Source of the DNA: Rhodobacteraceae bacterium HTCC2150
GTDB taxonomy: Bacteria; Pseudomonadota; Alphaproteobacteria; Rhodobacterales; Rhodobacteraceae
Length of the DNA stretch: 64,000 nucleotides
NCBI GenBank assembly: GCA_000169395.1
Contig: AAXZ01000001.1
Coordinates: 682,001-746,000 of the forward strand
Direction of reading: 5' to 3'
A program made the position numbers and the translations under genes. Shown here one piece after another: positions 6,038-57,572 of the stretch. The notes beneath the pieces are model-generated. The model saw only the letters and a list, made by a program, of their open reading frames with translations. It was not told where the DNA came from and did not search any database. The stretch's first letter is position 1. Each line of letters starts with the position of its first letter.

Positions 6038-6595
6038 ATGAAAAAACTGACCCTTCTCATTCTCGCCGCTAGCGCAACACCTGCTTTTGCCGCTTCTGGT
6101 CCTTTCTTTAGCCTTTTCAACACCAACTTCGTTGTTTGGCTGGCTTTCATCGCGTTTATCGCCGTGTTGGTTTACCTGAAGGTTCCTGGCAAACTTGGTG
6201 GCGCACTTGATGCGCGTGCAAATGACATTCGTTCCGAGTTGGACGAAGCCAAAGCACTGCGTGAAGAAGCACAAACTTTGTTGGCATCTTACGAGCGCAA
6301 ACAGCGCGAAGTTGCGGAACAATCCGAACGGATTATCGTCACAGCTAAAGAAGAAGCCGCGGTTGCTGCTGCAAAAGCTAAAGATGAATTGAAAACTTCT
6401 ATCGAACGCCGTCTGGCTGCCGCCGAAGATCAAATTACTTCTGCTGAAGCGAAAGCGATCCAACAAGTGCGCGACTCGGCTGTTTCAGTTGCAATTGGCG
6501 CCGCTGGCGATGCGATTGCTGCAAAAATGACAGCCGCAGACAGCAACGCGTTGATCGACGAAGCAATTGCTAACGCAGGTTCAAAACTGCACTAA
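6038..6595 (+). CDS. atpF: F0F1 ATP synthase subunit b
   Basis: This 185-residue stalk subunit has a hydrophobic N-terminus resembling a signal sequence (ending near AFAAS), a membrane helix at about 27-48, and then a continuous charged helix to the C-terminus. It starts 4 bp after atpF' and closes the operon, and an intrinsic terminator follows at once. The F1 genes atpHAGDC are not in the window; their separation from the F0 genes is normal in alphaproteobacteria. Confidence 0.95.
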   Translation: MKKLTLLILAASATPAFAASGPFFSLFNTNFVVWLAFIAFIAVLVYLKVPGKLGGALDARANDIRSELDEAKALREEAQTLLASYERKQREVAEQSERIIVTAKEEAAVAAAKAKDELKTSIERRLAAAEDQITSAEAKAIQQVRDSAVSVAIGAAGDAIAAKMTAADSNALIDEAIANAGSKLH

Positions 6596-6615
6596 AGCGA
6601 TTTCAATAAATTCGA

Positions 6616-6648
6616 AAAAACCCGGCCATTGCGTCGGGTTTTTTTGTG
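6616..6648 (+). terminator. Intrinsic terminator of the atp operon
   Basis: A stem built on AAACCCGGC and its near-complement GTCGGGTTT with a short loop is followed by an unbroken run of T residues. It begins about 20 bases after the atpF stop. Confidence 0.85.
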
Positions 6649-6697
6649 CCTCTTAGCAACTAGTGCGGATCAAGCTTATGACAGAGCGGGCTATAGG

Positions 6698-7465
6698 CTA
6701 ACTCTCGTTGATATGGGCTAGCCTTAGGCGCGAAATTTTTTCATTTCTATCGGCTTTCTGTCCCTGATAAAGAGCGTTTTCAACGAAGCTTAGATGATCA
6801 CTTACGGCCATTCTGGCGGCCGCTGGATCGCGTTTCTGCAATGCGTCATTTATTGCACGATGCTGATCTAAAAGCGTGCCACGCGTTGTGCGTTGTTTGA
6901 AGATGACCTGCCGATTGTAAAATACGCCTTGTTGCAGCAAATCAAACATTGAACGCATCATATGCAGCATGATGACGTTATGGCTGGCCTCAATGATTGC
7001 CATATGAAATTCAGCGTCAAGTTTTGCCTCAATGGCTGCATCGCGTTTTTCATGTGCGATTTCCATCTTCAAAAATATAGCATTTACAATTTGGAGATCG
7101 GTTTCAGAACCCATAGCCGCGGCGCGTTCAACCGCGAGGCATTCTAGGTCGCGACGAAAAGCGATGTAATCGGTGACCGCGGCATCATGGCGTTCAAACA
7201 ACCGGATCAAAGCAGGTGAAAAGGCCGACCCCAAAACATCAGCGACAAAAATCCCGGAACCAGCCTTGCTTGAAAGAAGACCGTCATTTTGCAGCTGGGC
7301 AATGGCATCACGCAAAGAAGGCCGAGAAACACCCAATCTTTCAGCGAGTTCACGTTCAGCGGGCAAGCGTTCACCTGGGCGTAGAATGCCACGAAGGATC
7401 AAATTTTCGATTTGATCCACTACCGCATGAGATAGTTTTTCAGATTGGATGGGTTGAAATGGCAC
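6698..7465 (-). CDS. FadR-type GntR regulator, proposed GlcC/LldR-like repressor of glcDEF
   Basis: This 255-residue regulator has an N-terminal GntR winged helix (about 8-75, with GERLPAERELAERLGVSRPS) and a C-terminal all-helical FCD domain. FCD domains of this class (PdhR, LldR, GlcC) bind small carboxylates, often through a metal site. The family is firm but the ligand is not shown by sequence alone. Its own promoter carries the palindrome at 7481-7505. A palindrome of identical spacing sits on the glcDEF promoter at 27571-27595, from which I infer a role in glycolate or lactate control. No metabolic gene is directly adjacent. Confidence 0.9.
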   Translation of the reverse strand: MPFQPIQSEKLSHAVVDQIENLILRGILRPGERLPAERELAERLGVSRPSLRDAIAQLQNDGLLSSKAGSGIFVADVLGSAFSPALIRLFERHDAAVTDYIAFRRDLECLAVERAAAMGSETDLQIVNAIFLKMEIAHEKRDAAIEAKLDAEFHMAIIEASHNVIMLHMMRSMFDLLQQGVFYNRQVIFKQRTTRGTLLDQHRAINDALQKRDPAAARMAVSDHLSFVENALYQGQKADRNEKISRLRLAHINES

Positions 7466-7480
7466 AGTATTCCCCTGTTG

Positions 7481-7519
7481 AAGTGGTCAGTTTATATGAC
7501 CACTTCCCAATTCTATCAA
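7481..7519 (-). promoter_or_regulatory. Autoregulated promoter with GntR operator TGGT-N11-ACCA
   Basis: A perfect dyad with 9-bp arms occupies 7481-7489 and 7497-7505 (AAGTGGTCA and TGACCACTT). On the minus strand a -35 box TTGATA (7514-7519) and a -10 box TATAAA (7491-7496) are exactly 17 bp apart. The -10 box lies in the centre of the dyad, so a bound dimer would block RNA polymerase. The regulator's start codon lies 15 bp downstream. Confidence 0.75.
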
Positions 7520-26442: not shown

Positions 26443-26808
26443 CTACTCCCCAAGATCCAAAAGGAAAAGCTCTTTGCCAAATCCAGTTAAATCACGCGTA
26501 CGGATGAAAACCTGTTTTAATTCTTCTGGAATTTCAACATTGCTAAGACTGCGTGTGAAAGGTTGCTCATTCACATGCGGGTGCGCCAACAGGCGAAAGC
26601 CTAGCTCATTTCCAGCGGCATCCTCAATCGCCCATCCATCAGCATAATCTTCCCATCCTGTGTCGCCGTGGCGGATAGTGACTGAAAAAGACCAAGTTCC
26701 GCGCGCGGTTTCTGTGGCGGATGCACGAACAACCACCGGCTCATCGGCGGTTGCTTGATTTGCGGCCAAGGTCAAAAGGACAGCAAAAAGAGGTGGGGTT
26801 AGTTTCAT
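26443..26808 (-). CDS. Secreted protein of unknown function
   Basis: This 121-residue protein has a Sec signal peptide (about 1-21, cleavage near ATADEP). A mature part of about 100 residues follows, rich in beta strands, with the patterns GTWSFSVTIRHGDTGWEDYADGW and RLLAHPHVNEQPF. I do not recognise a named family. It overlaps the upstream DUF599 gene by four bases, so the two are translationally coupled. It is probably periplasmic. Confidence 0.75.
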   Translation of the reverse strand: MKLTPPLFAVLLTLAANQATADEPVVVRASATETARGTWSFSVTIRHGDTGWEDYADGWAIEDAAGNELGFRLLAHPHVNEQPFTRSLSNVEIPEELKQVFIRTRDLTGFGKELFLLDLGE

Positions 26809-27527
26809 GTTAATCCTTCGATCGGCTTTTTCGCCATATCGGCCAACAGAATGTCGCGGCTGCGCGATTTGAACTCGCGGCGATAGAGCACAAGAAAACT
26901 TAGCGTTGCGGCTGCAAGAAGGGCGATTGGGTCAATTAACCAAGCGAGGCCCGCAAGTGCAAAATACAAAGATCGTAACCCTCTGTTAAAACTGCGCGAT
27001 GCAGTTGTGCAAATCTCTGCGGTCTTTGCAGCCATTGGATAAGCGTTTGGGTCGTCTTCCTTATTCGGAACAGATGCCATCAATACGGCGCAATATCCGA
27101 ACAAACGATGCGCCCAGACGAATTTTAAAAATGCATTACTGATGATTGCGATGACCATCAGTATTTTGACCTCCCAAACAAAGGGCGATGTGTTTTGCAG
27201 GGCAAAATCCTCTGCCACACCAGACAATTGTTCGGTGTTGCCCAACATGGCAAGGCCGCCACCAATGACCAGCAACGTCGTTGACGCAAAAAATGTACTT
27301 CCTTGTCGCAGAAAACCCAGAACGGCTGTGTCAACGATCCGAGGGTCCCGCGTTACCATCACCCGCATCCAATCGCGACGAAAAGTGGCCATAATCTGCG
27401 TCATTGATTGGCGATGTTTTGGGGCATTTTCGATGATGTAGTTCGTGGACACCCACAAACACAAAAATGCAACGACGGCCGCCACGTCAACAAGGGAAAA
27501 CCCGCTAAATTTGTCTAAGAATGTCAT
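26805..27527 (-). CDS. DUF599 membrane protein
   Basis: This 240-residue protein has about four membrane helices (14-31, 77-95, 117-138, 192-218). The family signature region RSFNRGLRSLYFALAGL lies before the last helix. DUF599 proteins are common in proteobacteria and have no established role. It is divergent from glcD, with start codons 89 bp apart, and heads a two-gene unit with the small secreted protein. Confidence 0.85.
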   Translation of the reverse strand: MTFLDKFSGFSLVDVAAVVAFLCLWVSTNYIIENAPKHRQSMTQIMATFRRDWMRVMVTRDPRIVDTAVLGFLRQGSTFFASTTLLVIGGGLAMLGNTEQLSGVAEDFALQNTSPFVWEVKILMVIAIISNAFLKFVWAHRLFGYCAVLMASVPNKEDDPNAYPMAAKTAEICTTASRSFNRGLRSLYFALAGLAWLIDPIALLAAATLSFLVLYRREFKSRSRDILLADMAKKPIEGLT

Positions 27528-27556: not shown

Positions 27557-27595
27557 TTGCCAGTTCTGAAAATTGGTTATAATATTTTACCAATT
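27557..27595 (+). promoter_or_regulatory. glcDEF promoter overlapped by a TGGT-N11-ACCA operator
   Basis: A dyad with 7-bp arms (AATTGGT at 27571-27577 and ACCAATT at 27589-27595) surrounds a perfect -10 box TATAAT (27578-27583). A possible -35 is TTGCCA at 27557-27562, 15 bp upstream. The half-sites and 11-bp spacing equal those of the operator at 7481-7505. This supports repression by the FadR-type regulator encoded at 6698-7465. Confidence 0.65.
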
Positions 27596-27616: not shown

Positions 27617-29050
27617 ATGGAAATGCCTATACCGAATGCTGATATTTTGGCCAAAAAATCCCGTTTGGTAGAACGCCTTTTACAGGTTCTGCCCAATGAA
27701 GCGGTCATTCACAGTGAAAATGAGACGAAAGTATACGAATGCGATGGGCTGACGGCCTATCGTTGCCCGCCTCTTTGTGCCGTTCTTCCCGCCAGTACTG
27801 AAGAAGTGGCCGCGGTTTTGAAAATTTGCCACGAGATGAATGTGCCCGTTGTGCCGCGTGGGTCAGGCACATCCTTGGCAGGCGGTGCACTGCCCACTGC
27901 CGATAGTGTGATTTTGGGCGTTGCGCGTATGAGCGAGGTTCTTGAAACCGATTATGAAAATCGTTTTGTGCGCGTGCAGACAGGTCGCACCAATCTAAGT
28001 GTGACTGGTGCCGTTGAAGAGGACGGATTTTTCTATGCACCCGATCCATCCAGCCAGCTGGCTTGCGCAATTGCAGGGAATATCGCGATGAATTCTGGCG
28101 GTGCGCATTGTCTGAAATATGGTGTCACGACGAACAATTTGATGGGTGTTCGTATGGTGATGATGGATGGCAGTGTTGTTGATATTGGTGGCGCGCATTT
28201 AGATGCGTCTGGGCTGGATTTGCTTGGTGTTATTTGTGGCTCCGAAGGGCAATTGGGCGTGGTTACCGAAGCAACTCTGCGCATTTTACATAAGCCAGAA
28301 GGCGCGCGACCTGTTTTGATGGGCTTTGATAGCAATGAGGTGGCAGGCGCTTGTGTGTCTGACATTATTAAAGCAGGCGTTTTGCCTGTTGCGATCGAAT
28401 TCATGGACCGCCCCGTGATTGAAGCGACCGAGGCATTTGCCGGTGCGGGTTATCCCGATTGTGAGGCTTTGCTGATTGTCGAAGTCGAGGGATCAGACCA
28501 AGAAATCGATGATCAACTTGATCTGATCTGTTCAATCGCAGAACGTCATAATCCGGTTGAATTGCGGCAAAGTAAATCCGCAGACGAAAGTGCACGCATT
28601 TGGTTGGGACGAAAGTCAGCCTTTGGCGCGATGGGGCAGATCAACGATTACATGTGTTTGGACGGGACAATCCCTGTTTCCGAACTTCCTCATGTTTTGC
28701 GGCGAATTGGCGAGCTGTCGGATCAATACGGCCTTAAGGTCGGCAATGTTTTTCACGCGGGCGACGGAAATATGCACCCGCTCATTCTGTTTGATGCCAA
28801 CAAAGAGGGTGATCTTGAATTATGCGAGGCCATGGGCGCTGATATCTTACGTTTGTGTGTTGAGGTTGGCGGGTGTTTAACTGGCGAACATGGAGTGGGC
28901 GTTGAAAAACGCGATCTGATGTTTGATCAATTCACAGCAACAGATCTTGAGGCGCAAATGGTGGTCAAAGACGTGTTTGACCCAAAGTGGTTGCTTAATC
29001 CGTCCAAAGTTTTTCCATTGTCTGCCAGCGAAGAACGTATGGCCAGTTAA
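27617..29050 (+). CDS. glcD: Glycolate oxidase FAD-binding subunit
   Basis: This 477-residue flavoprotein oxidises glycolate (and often D-lactate) to glyoxylate. The PCMH-type FAD domain contains VVPRGSGTSLAGGA (about 76-89), and the C-terminal FAD-oxidase lobe contains FHAGDGNMHP and GCLTGEHGVG. I start at the ATG at 27617 with a GAGGA-type site upstream. A longer reading from 27548 would place the start inside the promoter. It is followed by glcE and glcF in one operon, the standard membrane-linked complex. It lets the cell use phytoplankton glycolate. Confidence 0.96.
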   Translation: MEMPIPNADILAKKSRLVERLLQVLPNEAVIHSENETKVYECDGLTAYRCPPLCAVLPASTEEVAAVLKICHEMNVPVVPRGSGTSLAGGALPTADSVILGVARMSEVLETDYENRFVRVQTGRTNLSVTGAVEEDGFFYAPDPSSQLACAIAGNIAMNSGGAHCLKYGVTTNNLMGVRMVMMDGSVVDIGGAHLDASGLDLLGVICGSEGQLGVVTEATLRILHKPEGARPVLMGFDSNEVAGACVSDIIKAGVLPVAIEFMDRPVIEATEAFAGAGYPDCEALLIVEVEGSDQEIDDQLDLICSIAERHNPVELRQSKSADESARIWLGRKSAFGAMGQINDYMCLDGTIPVSELPHVLRRIGELSDQYGLKVGNVFHAGDGNMHPLILFDANKEGDLELCEAMGADILRLCVEVGGCLTGEHGVGVEKRDLMFDQFTATDLEAQMVVKDVFDPKWLLNPSKVFPLSASEERMAS

Positions 29051-29105: not shown

Positions 29106-30218
29106 ATGTTAATACCAACCGACGAAAAAGAATTGGCAGACGCAATTTCTAGTGCAAAGGGCCCTCTGTCTATTCGGGGCGGTAACACCCGTGGTTTTGC
29201 TGCGGATGGCACACCACTTGCGACCACTGGTTTGTCAGGTATTTCACTTTATGAACCCGGTGCACTTACACTGGTGGCGGCCGCTGGCACACCAATTGAC
29301 GATATTCAGGATGCATTGGCTGCCGAAGGTCAACGGTTGCCTTTTGAACCAATTGATCATCGTCCCATATTGAACAGTCAAGGCACCCCAACAATCGGTG
29401 GTGTGGTTGCGGCAAATGTTTCTGGGCCGCGTCGCATCCAAGCGGGCGCTTGTCGCGACAGTTTGATCGGTGTGCGGTTTGTTGATGGACAGGGCACGAT
29501 TATCAAAAATGGCGGTCGCGTGATGAAGAATGTGACAGGCTATGATTTGGTGAAACTTATGGCAGGCTCATATGGCACGCTGGGTGTTATTAGTGAGGTT
29601 GCATTTAAGGTGCTACCAGCGGCCAGTTCTGCTGCTTGTGTATTGATCGAAGGTTTGACAGACGCAAATGCCATCAAAGCCATGTCGCGCGCATTGGGAT
29701 CACCCTTTGACGTATCAGGTGCAGCCCACGTGCCAGTAGGTTTGGATGGGACCCCTGTGACCATGATCCGTCTTGAAGGGTTCGAAAAATCGGTTCAATA
29801 CCGAGCAAACGAGCTGAAAAACATCTTGGACGAATTCGGTGACATCAATATTGAACTTGACCCTGCTAACGTCGCCAAAGGTTGGGCATGGGTACGCGAT
29901 GCAACGCCTTTTGTCGGCACGAACGGGGATATTTGGCGTATTTCGGTAAAGCCAAGTGATGCACCAGAATTGGTGGCCAAGATTGCCCCCCAAAGTCATC
30001 TTTATGATTGGGGCGGTGGGTTGATTTGGGTTGAGGTCGCATCAGGCACCGACGTACGCGCGGCTATGCGCAATATCCAAGGTCACACCACGCGTATTCG
30101 CGGTGATGGGCACGCGCCAAAGTTTCATCCCGAGGCGCCGTTGTTGGCGAAAATCAATCGCGAGTTACGACAAAAGTTTGATCCGCGCGGCATTCTAAAC
30201 CCCAGTTTGATGGGCTGA
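29106..30218 (+). CDS. glcE: Glycolate oxidase subunit GlcE
   Basis: This 370-residue second FAD-domain subunit of glycolate oxidase has a PCMH-type fold with GPLSIRGGNTRGF (about 19-31) and GGVVAANVSGPRR in the FAD site. The shortened C-terminal half lacks the catalytic cap of GlcD, as expected for GlcE. Its gene lies 55 bp after glcD and 11 bp before glcF. All three subunits are required in E. coli. Confidence 0.95.
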   Translation: MLIPTDEKELADAISSAKGPLSIRGGNTRGFAADGTPLATTGLSGISLYEPGALTLVAAAGTPIDDIQDALAAEGQRLPFEPIDHRPILNSQGTPTIGGVVAANVSGPRRIQAGACRDSLIGVRFVDGQGTIIKNGGRVMKNVTGYDLVKLMAGSYGTLGVISEVAFKVLPAASSAACVLIEGLTDANAIKAMSRALGSPFDVSGAAHVPVGLDGTPVTMIRLEGFEKSVQYRANELKNILDEFGDINIELDPANVAKGWAWVRDATPFVGTNGDIWRISVKPSDAPELVAKIAPQSHLYDWGGGLIWVEVASGTDVRAAMRNIQGHTTRIRGDGHAPKFHPEAPLLAKINRELRQKFDPRGILNPSLMG

Positions 30219-30229
30219 AAGACAAGACA

Positions 30230-31522
30230 ATGCAAACAAACTTCACCCCAGAACAACTAAAGTCATCTGCTATTCAACGCTCGAATGAGGTGCTGCGAGC
30301 CTGCGTTCATTGTGGTTTTTGCACGGCGACCTGTCCAACTTATCAAGTACTTGGTGATGAACTCGACAGTCCGCGCGGCCGAATTTACATGATCAAAGAT
30401 ATGCTTGAAACGGGGCGACCTGCGGATGAGCAAACGGTCAAACACGTGGATCGCTGTTTGTCTTGCCTTGCCTGCATGAGTACGTGCCCGTCTGGCGTGC
30501 ATTACATGCATCTTGTTGATCATGCCCGAGAATATATCGAACAAACCTATAAACGCCCCTTTACGGATCGCGCATTGCGATGGATTCTGGCGCGTGTTTT
30601 ACCCCATCCAATGCGGTTTCGCGTTGCCTTGCTTGGGGCGAAAATTGCGTATCCTTTTCGTGCACTGATGCCTGATGCTCGCCTTCGGGCGATGCTTGAA
30701 ATGGCACCTAAAACCATTCCCCCCGTCAATCGAAACGATGATCCACAAACATTTGAAACACCCGCACCTAAAAAGATGCGCGTGGCATTGATGACGGGCT
30801 GCGCGCAAAAGGCCTTGAACACAGATATTAACGACGCAACCATCCGTTTACTTAACCGCAGTGGGGCCGAGGTGGTGGTTGCAAAGGGGCAAGGGTGTTG
30901 TGGTGCGTTAACTCATCATATGGGCAAAACTGCTGAAAGCCATGCAGCGGCGCGCGCTAACATTCGCGCATGGATCGCCGAAATGGACGGTGACGGGTTG
31001 GATGCAATTGTTATCAATACCTCGGGATGTGGCACTACGATCAAAGACTATGGTCACATGTTTCGTGATGATCCCATGGCCAAAGATGCAGCCCGCGTTG
31101 CGGCAATTGCAAAGGATGTATCCGAGGTTCTGATGGATCTGGAGTTGCCGATTGGGGCCGATCAAGACTTGAAGGTTGCCTATCACTCGGCCTGTTCCTT
31201 GCAGCATGGTCAGCAAATTAAAACACACCCTAAAACCTTGTTGAAAAATGCAGGGTTTACTGTGGTTGAACCGGCTGACCCGCATCTTTGTTGTGGCTCG
31301 GCTGGAACCTATAATTTGATGCAACCGGAAATATCAAGCCAACTAAAAACTCGGAAAGTGAAAACCCTTGAGGCCAAGAACCCAGATGTAATTGCGGCGG
31401 GCAATATTGGGTGCATGATGCAAATCGGTTCTGCCAGCCGTGTACCGATTGTACATACAGTTGAATTGCTTGATTGGGCTACCGGTGGACCAAAGCCGCC
31501 GGCCTTAAATAACGCGTCATAA
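30230..31522 (+). CDS. glcF: Glycolate oxidase iron-sulfur subunit
   Basis: This 430-residue protein has two 4Fe-4S ferredoxin motifs near the N-terminus (CVHCGFCTATCPTY and CLSCLACMSTCPSGV). Two CCG domains (GCAQKAL..., GCCGALTHHMG and CCGSAGTYNL) follow, which bind further cofactors and pass electrons to the quinone pool at the membrane. It completes glcDEF. A 51-bp gap follows before an unrelated protease gene. Confidence 0.96.
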   Translation: MQTNFTPEQLKSSAIQRSNEVLRACVHCGFCTATCPTYQVLGDELDSPRGRIYMIKDMLETGRPADEQTVKHVDRCLSCLACMSTCPSGVHYMHLVDHAREYIEQTYKRPFTDRALRWILARVLPHPMRFRVALLGAKIAYPFRALMPDARLRAMLEMAPKTIPPVNRNDDPQTFETPAPKKMRVALMTGCAQKALNTDINDATIRLLNRSGAEVVVAKGQGCCGALTHHMGKTAESHAAARANIRAWIAEMDGDGLDAIVINTSGCGTTIKDYGHMFRDDPMAKDAARVAAIAKDVSEVLMDLELPIGADQDLKVAYHSACSLQHGQQIKTHPKTLLKNAGFTVVEPADPHLCCGSAGTYNLMQPEISSQLKTRKVKTLEAKNPDVIAAGNIGCMMQIGSASRVPIVHTVELLDWATGGPKPPALNNAS

Positions 31523-55917: not shown

Positions 55918-56712
55918 TCAACTTAGGTGACGGTTTAATCGTTTGTTCGCCCAGCCAAATAACAGGATCAAAAGAATGGTGAACAGAATGAAAAACCCTG
56001 CAATGATTGGGTAAGGCACAAAAGGATTGAACGTTTTGTCCGCAAAATAGCTGGCATAATAGAGTGAATCACCGCGTTGTTGCCATGCAGGAAAACTGGA
56101 AAAGAACACCAAGGCCGTTGCGTGAAACAGAAAGATCGCCTCGTTTGTGTAACTTGGCCACGCAAGGCGCAACATGGTTGGCCAGATAATGCGACGGTTG
56201 ATCTGGACGGTATTCATGCCAATGGCGCGTGCAGCTTCGATATCGCCACGTGGCACTGATTTTAAGGCGCCATAGAATATCTGCGCTGTGTAAGCCGATG
56301 TATTCAAGAACAACACAATCGCGGCACCCAACCAAGCGCGTGTCAACCAACGTGTTTCAATGCCAATTTCGATGAAGCCCAAATTAATGTCCCAGCCGAC
56401 TTTGGGCAGTAAAACGAATGTTTCGTACACAATGAAAAACTGAATGAATAAGGGCGATCCGCGGACCAAGAAAATGAATGTGGCAGCTGGTAACGAAAGC
56501 CACTTTCGATCACTGGCTCGACCAAAGGCAACGAGGGAAGCAAAGAAAAAGCCAAAGCCAAGCGCAACAACCGCAAAATAAACGTTCCAGATCAAACCAG
56601 ACCCAATAAGGACGATCTGTTCGCAAAGGGAAATGTCAGCTTTTGGCAAGGCGCGTTCGCCGTATCCAAGGGCACGAAATGCATAATCCGTGAATGTTTG
56701 AGCGCAACTCAT
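55918..56712 (-). CDS. Polar amino acid ABC transporter permease (HisM type)
   Basis: This 264-residue inner-membrane permease has five or more helices and the HisMQ-type EAA loop (DIEAARAIGMNTVQINRRIIWP) that meets the ATPase. It overlaps the partner permease by four bases and is the last gene of the transporter operon read on the minus strand. The two permeases form the heterodimeric pore. Confidence 0.93.
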   Translation of the reverse strand: MSCAQTFTDYAFRALGYGERALPKADISLCEQIVLIGSGLIWNVYFAVVALGFGFFFASLVAFGRASDRKWLSLPAATFIFLVRGSPLFIQFFIVYETFVLLPKVGWDINLGFIEIGIETRWLTRAWLGAAIVLFLNTSAYTAQIFYGALKSVPRGDIEAARAIGMNTVQINRRIIWPTMLRLAWPSYTNEAIFLFHATALVFFSSFPAWQQRGDSLYYASYFADKTFNPFVPYPIIAGFFILFTILLILLFGWANKRLNRHLS

Positions 56713-57572
56713 ACGGTGCCCCCAATCGTTGTTTGGCCTTTAGAAACGCGGCGCGTTAGATTGTTAAAGAACTTTTCACTGACCCAAGTTAACCCAAGAT
56801 AGAAAACCAACAGCACAAGGAAATAGCCCAAACGCCAATCAGGGTGTGGGTAAGCAAAGCGTGCGGTTTTTGTGCCTCCAAGTTCACGCGCCCAATATAC
56901 GATGTCTTCTACACCAAGTAGGAACAACAACGGTGTGGCTTTGATCAAGATCATCCACAAATTTGATAGGCCGGGCAGGGCATACGCCCACATTTGCGGC
57001 AAATGAATGCGTCGGAAAATTTGTCCACGGCTCATACCGAACGCTGCGGCGGTTTCTAGTTGTGCTTTGGGTACAGCGCCTAGGGCACCATGTAGGGTAT
57101 TTGCCGCAAAAGCCCCGAAAACGATGGCAAAGGCCAAAGTCGCCAGCAAAAACCCATAAGTTTCATGGACCCATTGCGGCGAAATTCCCAATGGCATTTT
57201 GGCAGCCGTACAAACAACAAAATCATTGCCTTGTCGGACGGGTTCTAGCCAATCGCTACACTTCCATTGGTGGCGAAGATATTCAATGCCTTGGTCCATT
57301 GCGATGGGGACGAACAAAAAGAAAATGATGTCAGGGATACCGCGCACCATGGATGTGTACCCAAGGCCAAACCACCGAACTGGCAACATTCGTGATCGGC
57401 GCGCCAATGCACCAGCAAACCCAAACGCCAAGATAATTGGCACGGTCAAAAGCAACAAGGCAAAGACGACCAAGAACGATTGATAAAAATTGATATGTTT
57501 GCCTGTGGTCAGATAACACGACCACCAACTTAGGCCGTCCACCAAACTTGGATCTGCGCAATGATTAAACAT
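56709..57572 (-). CDS. Polar amino acid ABC transporter permease (HisQ type)
   Basis: This 287-residue permease has a HisMQ-family EAA loop (AQLETAAAFGMSRGQIFRRI) and helices near 30-52, 65-85, 149-170 and 250-265. It carries a longer N-terminal periplasmic section than most. It follows the binding-protein gene after a 68-bp gap containing a very stable hairpin, and is coupled to the second permease gene. Confidence 0.92.
   Translation of the reverse strand: MFNHCADPSLVDGLSWWSCYLTTGKHINFYQSFLVVFALLLLTVPIILAFGFAGALARRSRMLPVRWFGLGYTSMVRGIPDIIFFLFVPIAMDQGIEYLRHQWKCSDWLEPVRQGNDFVVCTAAKMPLGISPQWVHETYGFLLATLAFAIVFGAFAANTLHGALGAVPKAQLETAAAFGMSRGQIFRRIHLPQMWAYALPGLSNLWMILIKATPLLFLLGVEDIVYWARELGGTKTARFAYPHPDWRLGYFLVLLVFYLGLTWVSEKFFNNLTRRVSKGQTTIGGTV

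Follow-up and report, generated by a model that had tools for sequence, protein, structure and literature searches.

Which protein controls the glycolate oxidase genes glcDEF in Rhodobacteraceae bacterium HTCC2150? The window (the whole 64-kb stretch of DNA that we analysed) holds a palindrome over the glcD promoter and a similar one in front of the gene for an FCD-type GntR regulator 20 kb away, and the original prediction was that this regulator is the glycolate-responsive repressor of glcDEF. A large flux of carbon passes through algal glycolate, and its consumers include members of the Rhodobacteraceae. From comparisons across the family, the regulator very probably controls both glcDEF and lldD, and it most likely represses α-hydroxy-acid oxidation beyond glycolate oxidase, together with its own gene.

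A perfect dyad overlies the glcD promoter

The glcDEF genes and the features of their promoter are listed below.

26805–27527, minus strand: DUF599 gene (Pfam PF04654), divergent from glcD
27557–27562, plus strand: −35-like TTGCCA of the glcD promoter, 17 bp ahead of TGGT
27571–27595, no strand assigned: predicted glcDEF operator AATTGGT-N11-ACCAATT, overlapping the −10, conserved across genera and ranked 1 in its own genome
27578–27583, plus strand: −10-like TATAAT within the operator, with TAATAT at 27580–27585 as an alternative
27617–29050, plus strand: glcD, glycolate oxidase FAD subunit (NCBIfam PRK11230, E = 1.8e-158, under the curated equivalog cut-off)
29106–30218, plus strand: glcE (NCBIfam PRK11282, E = 2.5e-81, 273 bits, narrowly missing the cut-off of 284)
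30230–31522, plus strand: glcF (NCBIfam PRK11274, 462 bits, exceeding the cut-off of 333)

The glcD product matches the Pfam families FAD_binding_4 and FAD-oxidase_C. We replaced the start given by the ORF caller (27548) with ATG 27617, which lies 22 bp 3′ of the dyad; relatives have the same start codon. As originally described, an AATTGGT-N11-ACCAATT sequence encloses TATAAT upstream of glcD. The sequence at 27571–27595, AATTGGTTATAATATTTTACCAATT, is a perfect dyad with 7-bp arms and 11 bp between TGGT and ACCA. The two −10 candidates overlap, and either fits the promoter, TATAAT with a 15-bp spacer and TAATAT with a 17-bp spacer. The DUF599 gene and glcD share the 89-bp intergenic region that contains the operator, and their co-regulation is possible.

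The regulator gene has a dyad with the same core in the same register

The corresponding features at the regulator gene are as follows.

6698–7465, minus strand: FCD/GntR regulator, proposed to repress its own gene, glcDEF and lldD (GTG start at 7465; Pfam GntR and FCD)
7481–7505, no strand assigned: predicted autoregulatory operator AAGTGGTCA-N7-TGACCACTT, with a TGGT-N11-ACCA core, ranked 2 in its own genome
7514–7519, minus strand: −35-like TTGATA of the regulator promoter, with a 17-bp spacer to TATAAA at 7496–7491

The protein combines an N-terminal GntR winged helix-turn-helix (HTH) domain (PF00392, 76.5 bits) with a C-terminal FCD domain (PF07729, 82.1 bits), both above cut-off. Its best NCBIfam matches are PdhR, LldR and GlcC, each well under the equivalog cut-off (NF007001, 190.4 bits with a cut-off of 330; NF007741, 181.8 with 311; and the E. 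coli GlcC equivalog NF007442, 137.8 with 301). A search of the genome with the regulator gave six other GntR-type matches, the best at E = 2.5e-11, and no other close member of the group. The regulator gene adjoins atpF, encoding the F-type ATP synthase b subunit (window 6038–7465), and atpF-like sequence apparently lies beside the regulator in several relatives too.

At 7481–7505, 16 bp ahead of the GTG start, the sequence AAGTGGTCAGTTTATATGACCACTT forms a perfect palindrome whose arms are 9 bp long. Its TGGT/ACCA half-sites and N11 spacing are identical to those of the glcD dyad, as had been claimed. The further claim that both dyads take the same position over the −10 also holds, with a −35-like TTG on the coding strand starting exactly 17 bp before TGGT at each promoter. 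This offset recurs in 19 of 27 glcD promoters and 13 of 22 regulator promoters among the genera compared. Because the TTG-to-TGGT offset is fixed at 17 bp, the dyad lies over the −10 in one register at both genes, a placement that fits repression.

The two sites rank highest in the genome

The original argument was that two coincidences of this form are unlikely. On one genome this argument is weak, because the bare core is common. TGGT-N11-ACCA occurs three times in the window, with about one expected and at least three found in 7 of 100 shuffles, and 94 times in the 3.58-Mb genome as compared with 72 occurrences of a reversed control pattern. Since the core barely exceeds this control, we dropped it as evidence. 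The third copy in the window (57506–57524) lies within an amino-acid ABC permease gene (56709–57572); it is intragenic and without promoter context, and we take it as chance.

A motif model built from 47 training sites, with the two sites of this genome excluded, was scanned over the 3.58 Mb. The glcD site came top with 24.7 bits, followed by the regulator site with 21.1 bits. This leave-one-out ranking, together with the conservation described below, places the pair beyond chance. Ranks 3 and 4 (14.2 and 13.7 bits) fell to the following sites.

C14:56367–56389: further N11 site upstream of lldD
C25:436872–436896: further N11 site upstream of a TRAP-transporter substrate-binding protein gene

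The TRAP-transporter protein is a candidate glycolate or lactate importer.

Site and regulator occur together across the family

We compared the sequences ahead of glcD and the regulator gene, first in relatives and then in a family sample of one genome per genus, counting as orthologs of the regulator proteins with 57% identity or more; about 97 of the 130 genera encode one. All 93 genera with a regulator ortholog carry the dyad at glcD, and none of the 29 without one does (122 genera). Because the site is kept in every regulator-bearing genus and absent from all the others, the regulator very probably controls glcDEF, and the proposal that it does so through the operator type found on its own gene is supported by these comparisons. 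Loss of the site in relatives that keep both genes, which would have spoken against the proposal, was looked for and found in none of the 93 genera. Nor did any of the 29 regulator-less genera show, in the regions searched, a related FCD gene in the 1.3 kb ahead of glcD. One regulator-less genus (G085, L243) has an apparent decayed operator, TTGGTTGTATTTTAGTCCCAA (TGGT-N11-CCCA), upstream of glcD, perhaps reflecting recent loss of the regulator.

On the best glcD tree, which covers 82 genera, the regulator is gained or lost 17 times; site and regulator agree in all 82, and well-supported branches force only 3 of the 17 changes. An independent-pairs test on strongly supported branches gave three pairs, all concordant; the number is small because support in the glcD tree is modest. 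At the regulator's own promoter, a site was found in 22 of 28 orthologs, and about 6 of the 28 have no recognisable site.

The regulator had been described as unlinked to glcDEF, as opposed to E. coli, where glcC adjoins glcDEF. The E. coli arrangement is confirmed, and the genes here do form separate operons 20 kb apart. However, they share a neighbourhood: in 37 genera a single contig carries both genes, and in 26 of these the distance is at most 50 kb, mostly 10–45 kb.

Additional predicted targets point to α-hydroxy-acid oxidation

Regions upstream of lldD and glcB (malate synthase G) were scored with a leave-one-genome-out matrix. A random null for these scores was set aside, as its loci also contained genuine sites and its 99% value was thereby inflated. 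Of 25 genera with the regulator, 22 have a site ahead of lldD; of five without it, none does. For glcB the counts within the family are about 13 of 23 and zero of four. No site was found upstream of glcB in the HTCC2150 genome. Sites at glcB were seen in genera G003, G009, G006 and G011 (L136, L138, L143 and L149), and in the first three an aminopeptidase-like gene lies divergently to glcB. The site is also found at lactate-utilisation (lut) genes and TRAP genes in some genera, and at a lutAB-like operon in G015.

In G011 (L139, L149, L203) the regulator is kept although glcD is absent, and sites lie on the regulator gene, an α-hydroxy-acid dehydrogenase gene and glcB. It follows that glcDEF cannot be the regulator's only target. 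To judge from the sites that lie at lldD here and, in relatives, at glcB, lut and TRAP genes, the regulator does not serve glcDEF alone. With these sites and those of G011, it looks like a switch for α-hydroxy-acid oxidation of which glcDEF is the constant member: no other target is kept in all the genera examined (93 of 93 for glcDEF), and the glcDEF sites score best.

A proposed model for regulation

Operators of the FadR subfamily usually have 3 bp, and sometimes 2, between GT and AC, with exceptions (PMC4494728). This typical spacing is not seen here; all sites of the regulon are N11, with unchanged half-sites. The protein can still belong to the FCD/FadR subfamily despite the wide spacing, because such exceptions exist and the predicted alphaproteobacterial 'GlcC' motif has a changed spacer too. 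The N11 spacing would need another dimer geometry or two dimers.

In our proposal the 6698–7465 protein acts as a dimer and belongs with the FCD-type GntR regulators of the PdhR/LldR/GlcC/GlcR group. When inducer is absent, the dimer would occupy the 25-bp dyad over the glcDEF −10 and block RNA polymerase; binding in the same register at its own promoter would give autoregulation. A TRAP-transporter gene and lldD are probably further targets of the regulator in its own genome. An α-hydroxy acid (glycolate, perhaps L-lactate too) would bind the FCD domain and release the regulator, so that glycolate and lactate oxidation would be switched on together. Direct binding to the dyad is suggested by the sequence comparisons, and we infer the glycolate response and repression from the position of the site and from the precedent of Paracoccus GlcR. 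L-Lactate, as an alternative or additional inducer, is a live alternative.

That both dyads are chance AT-rich palindromes is a negligible prospect: TGGT-N11-ACCA is indeed common, but this reading is refuted by the pattern across genera (site in 93 of 93 with the regulator, none in 29 of 29 without), and the dyads hold the first two ranks in the leave-one-out model. A different regulator, of FCD type or from another family, could bind the glcD dyad and merely track the 6698–7465 protein, given the six other GntR-type matches in the genome and given that cross-genome correlation is not binding. We consider this improbable, since those matches have E-values of 2.5e-11 or weaker, 22 of 28 genera have the motif at the regulator's own promoter in matching register, and co-loss is complete in 122 genera. 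In addition, Paracoccus denitrificans and Sinorhizobium meliloti, with a related regulator near glcD, show an N11 dyad there. It would be equally surprising if the regulator activated glcDEF. E. coli GlcC, from the same protein group, is an activator of these genes, whereas the Paracoccus homolog is a repressor (both as given in PMC11323563) and a dyad over the −10, at a fixed distance from the −35 in both promoters, occupies a repressor position.

A more serious question is whether the protein is mainly an L-lactate (LldR-like) regulator, with glcDEF a secondary target answering to lactate or a shared metabolite. This possibility is compatible with the binding claim, and we regard it as unlikely while giving it real weight. 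It is favored by the site at lldD in 22 of 25 genera, by the sites at the lutAB-like operon of G015 and at TRAP genes, and by 43–45% identity to LldR-like regulators encoded beside lactate genes, which is as close as to any group. Yet glcDEF alone is kept as a target in all 93 genera and has the highest-scoring sites, and glcB, which encodes the next step after glyoxylate, is targeted in many genera. The explanation that we favor, in which an FCD regulator represses glcDEF and itself, probably also lldD and the TRAP gene, and is released by an α-hydroxy acid, appears highly probable as a whole.

Significance

We put forward, tentatively and as somewhat short of an even prospect, the broader proposal that an FCD clade distinct from GlcR, present in about three-quarters of sampled genera, controls both glycolate and L-lactate oxidation through a PdhR half-site at N11 rather than N3 spacing. 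If true, a PdhR half-site at N11 instead of N3 would imply the same recognition helix with a different dimer geometry on DNA, and a shift in spacing with half-sites unchanged poses a clean question in GntR protein–DNA recognition. A defined operator and a single regulator that apparently tie L-lactate dehydrogenase and, in many genera, malate synthase G to glycolate oxidase would make glycolate use predictable from sequence family-wide, and the operator/regulator pair would yield parts for glycolate or lactate sensors.

Comparison with known systems

A close precedent is GlcR (Pden_4400) of P. denitrificans, a glcDEF repressor that binds a 156-bp Pglc fragment; glycolate releases it, whereas glyoxylate does not (mBio 2024, PMC11323563). 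The abstract, GlcR results and discussion of that paper define no operator sequence; in a P. denitrificans strain, we find TGGT-N11-ACCA in the glcR–glcD region. N11-like dyads at glcD also occur in S. meliloti, Shinella and a Sulfitobacter plasmid. On S. meliloti pSymB (L094 3392–3607), a one-mismatch N11 dyad, TGGTCAAATTGATTGTCCA, lies between a glc-linked FCD regulator gene and a DUF3422 gene.

Both GlcR and the window protein are FCD/GntR proteins of the PdhR/LldR/GlcC group, and both are linked to glcDEF, here by prediction. They differ in sequence, with only 39% identity, and the window protein belongs to another clade. We rejected the name GlcR for it: a single clade is rejected (AU p = 2.9e-6), and the two fall on opposite sides of a 99/98 branch, around which intermediate clades are thinly sampled. 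In Paracoccus the regulator gene adjoins glcD divergently, whereas here it is 20 kb away, and lldD, a predicted target of the window regulator, is not reported among GlcR targets in the sections of PMC11323563 named above. Identity of the window protein to rhizobial regulators, both glc-linked and lactate-linked, is 42–45%.

Leyn et al. 2016 and RegPrecise predicted for alphaproteobacteria a 'GlcC' motif whose spacer is unlike that of beta- and gammaproteobacteria (PMC5343134). Like the window regulon, it describes a glycolate regulon with a palindromic GntR motif of altered spacer, and the two regulons probably overlap; the text of PMC5343134 does not give the motif, spacer or genomes. A literature search for work on glycolate regulation in roseobacters returned nothing relevant by title and abstract.

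Among the E. coli proteins, GlcC is likewise an FCD regulator of glcDEF, but it is 32% identical to the window protein, adjoins glcDEF, uses an N3-type site (PMC4494728) and activates its target. PdhR, whose NCBIfam model gives the window protein its best match, has AATTGGT/ACCAATT half-sites at pdhR, and its HTH stretch ERELA..VSRPSLR matches that of the window protein; it differs in its N3 spacing, in controlling pyruvate dehydrogenase and in being 37% identical. LldR regulates lldD, also a predicted target here, but is 34% identical and is encoded inside lldPRD. Regulators of this type are thus already known, and what is added here is the N11 operator, the distinct clade, the co-loss evidence and the predicted link to lldD.
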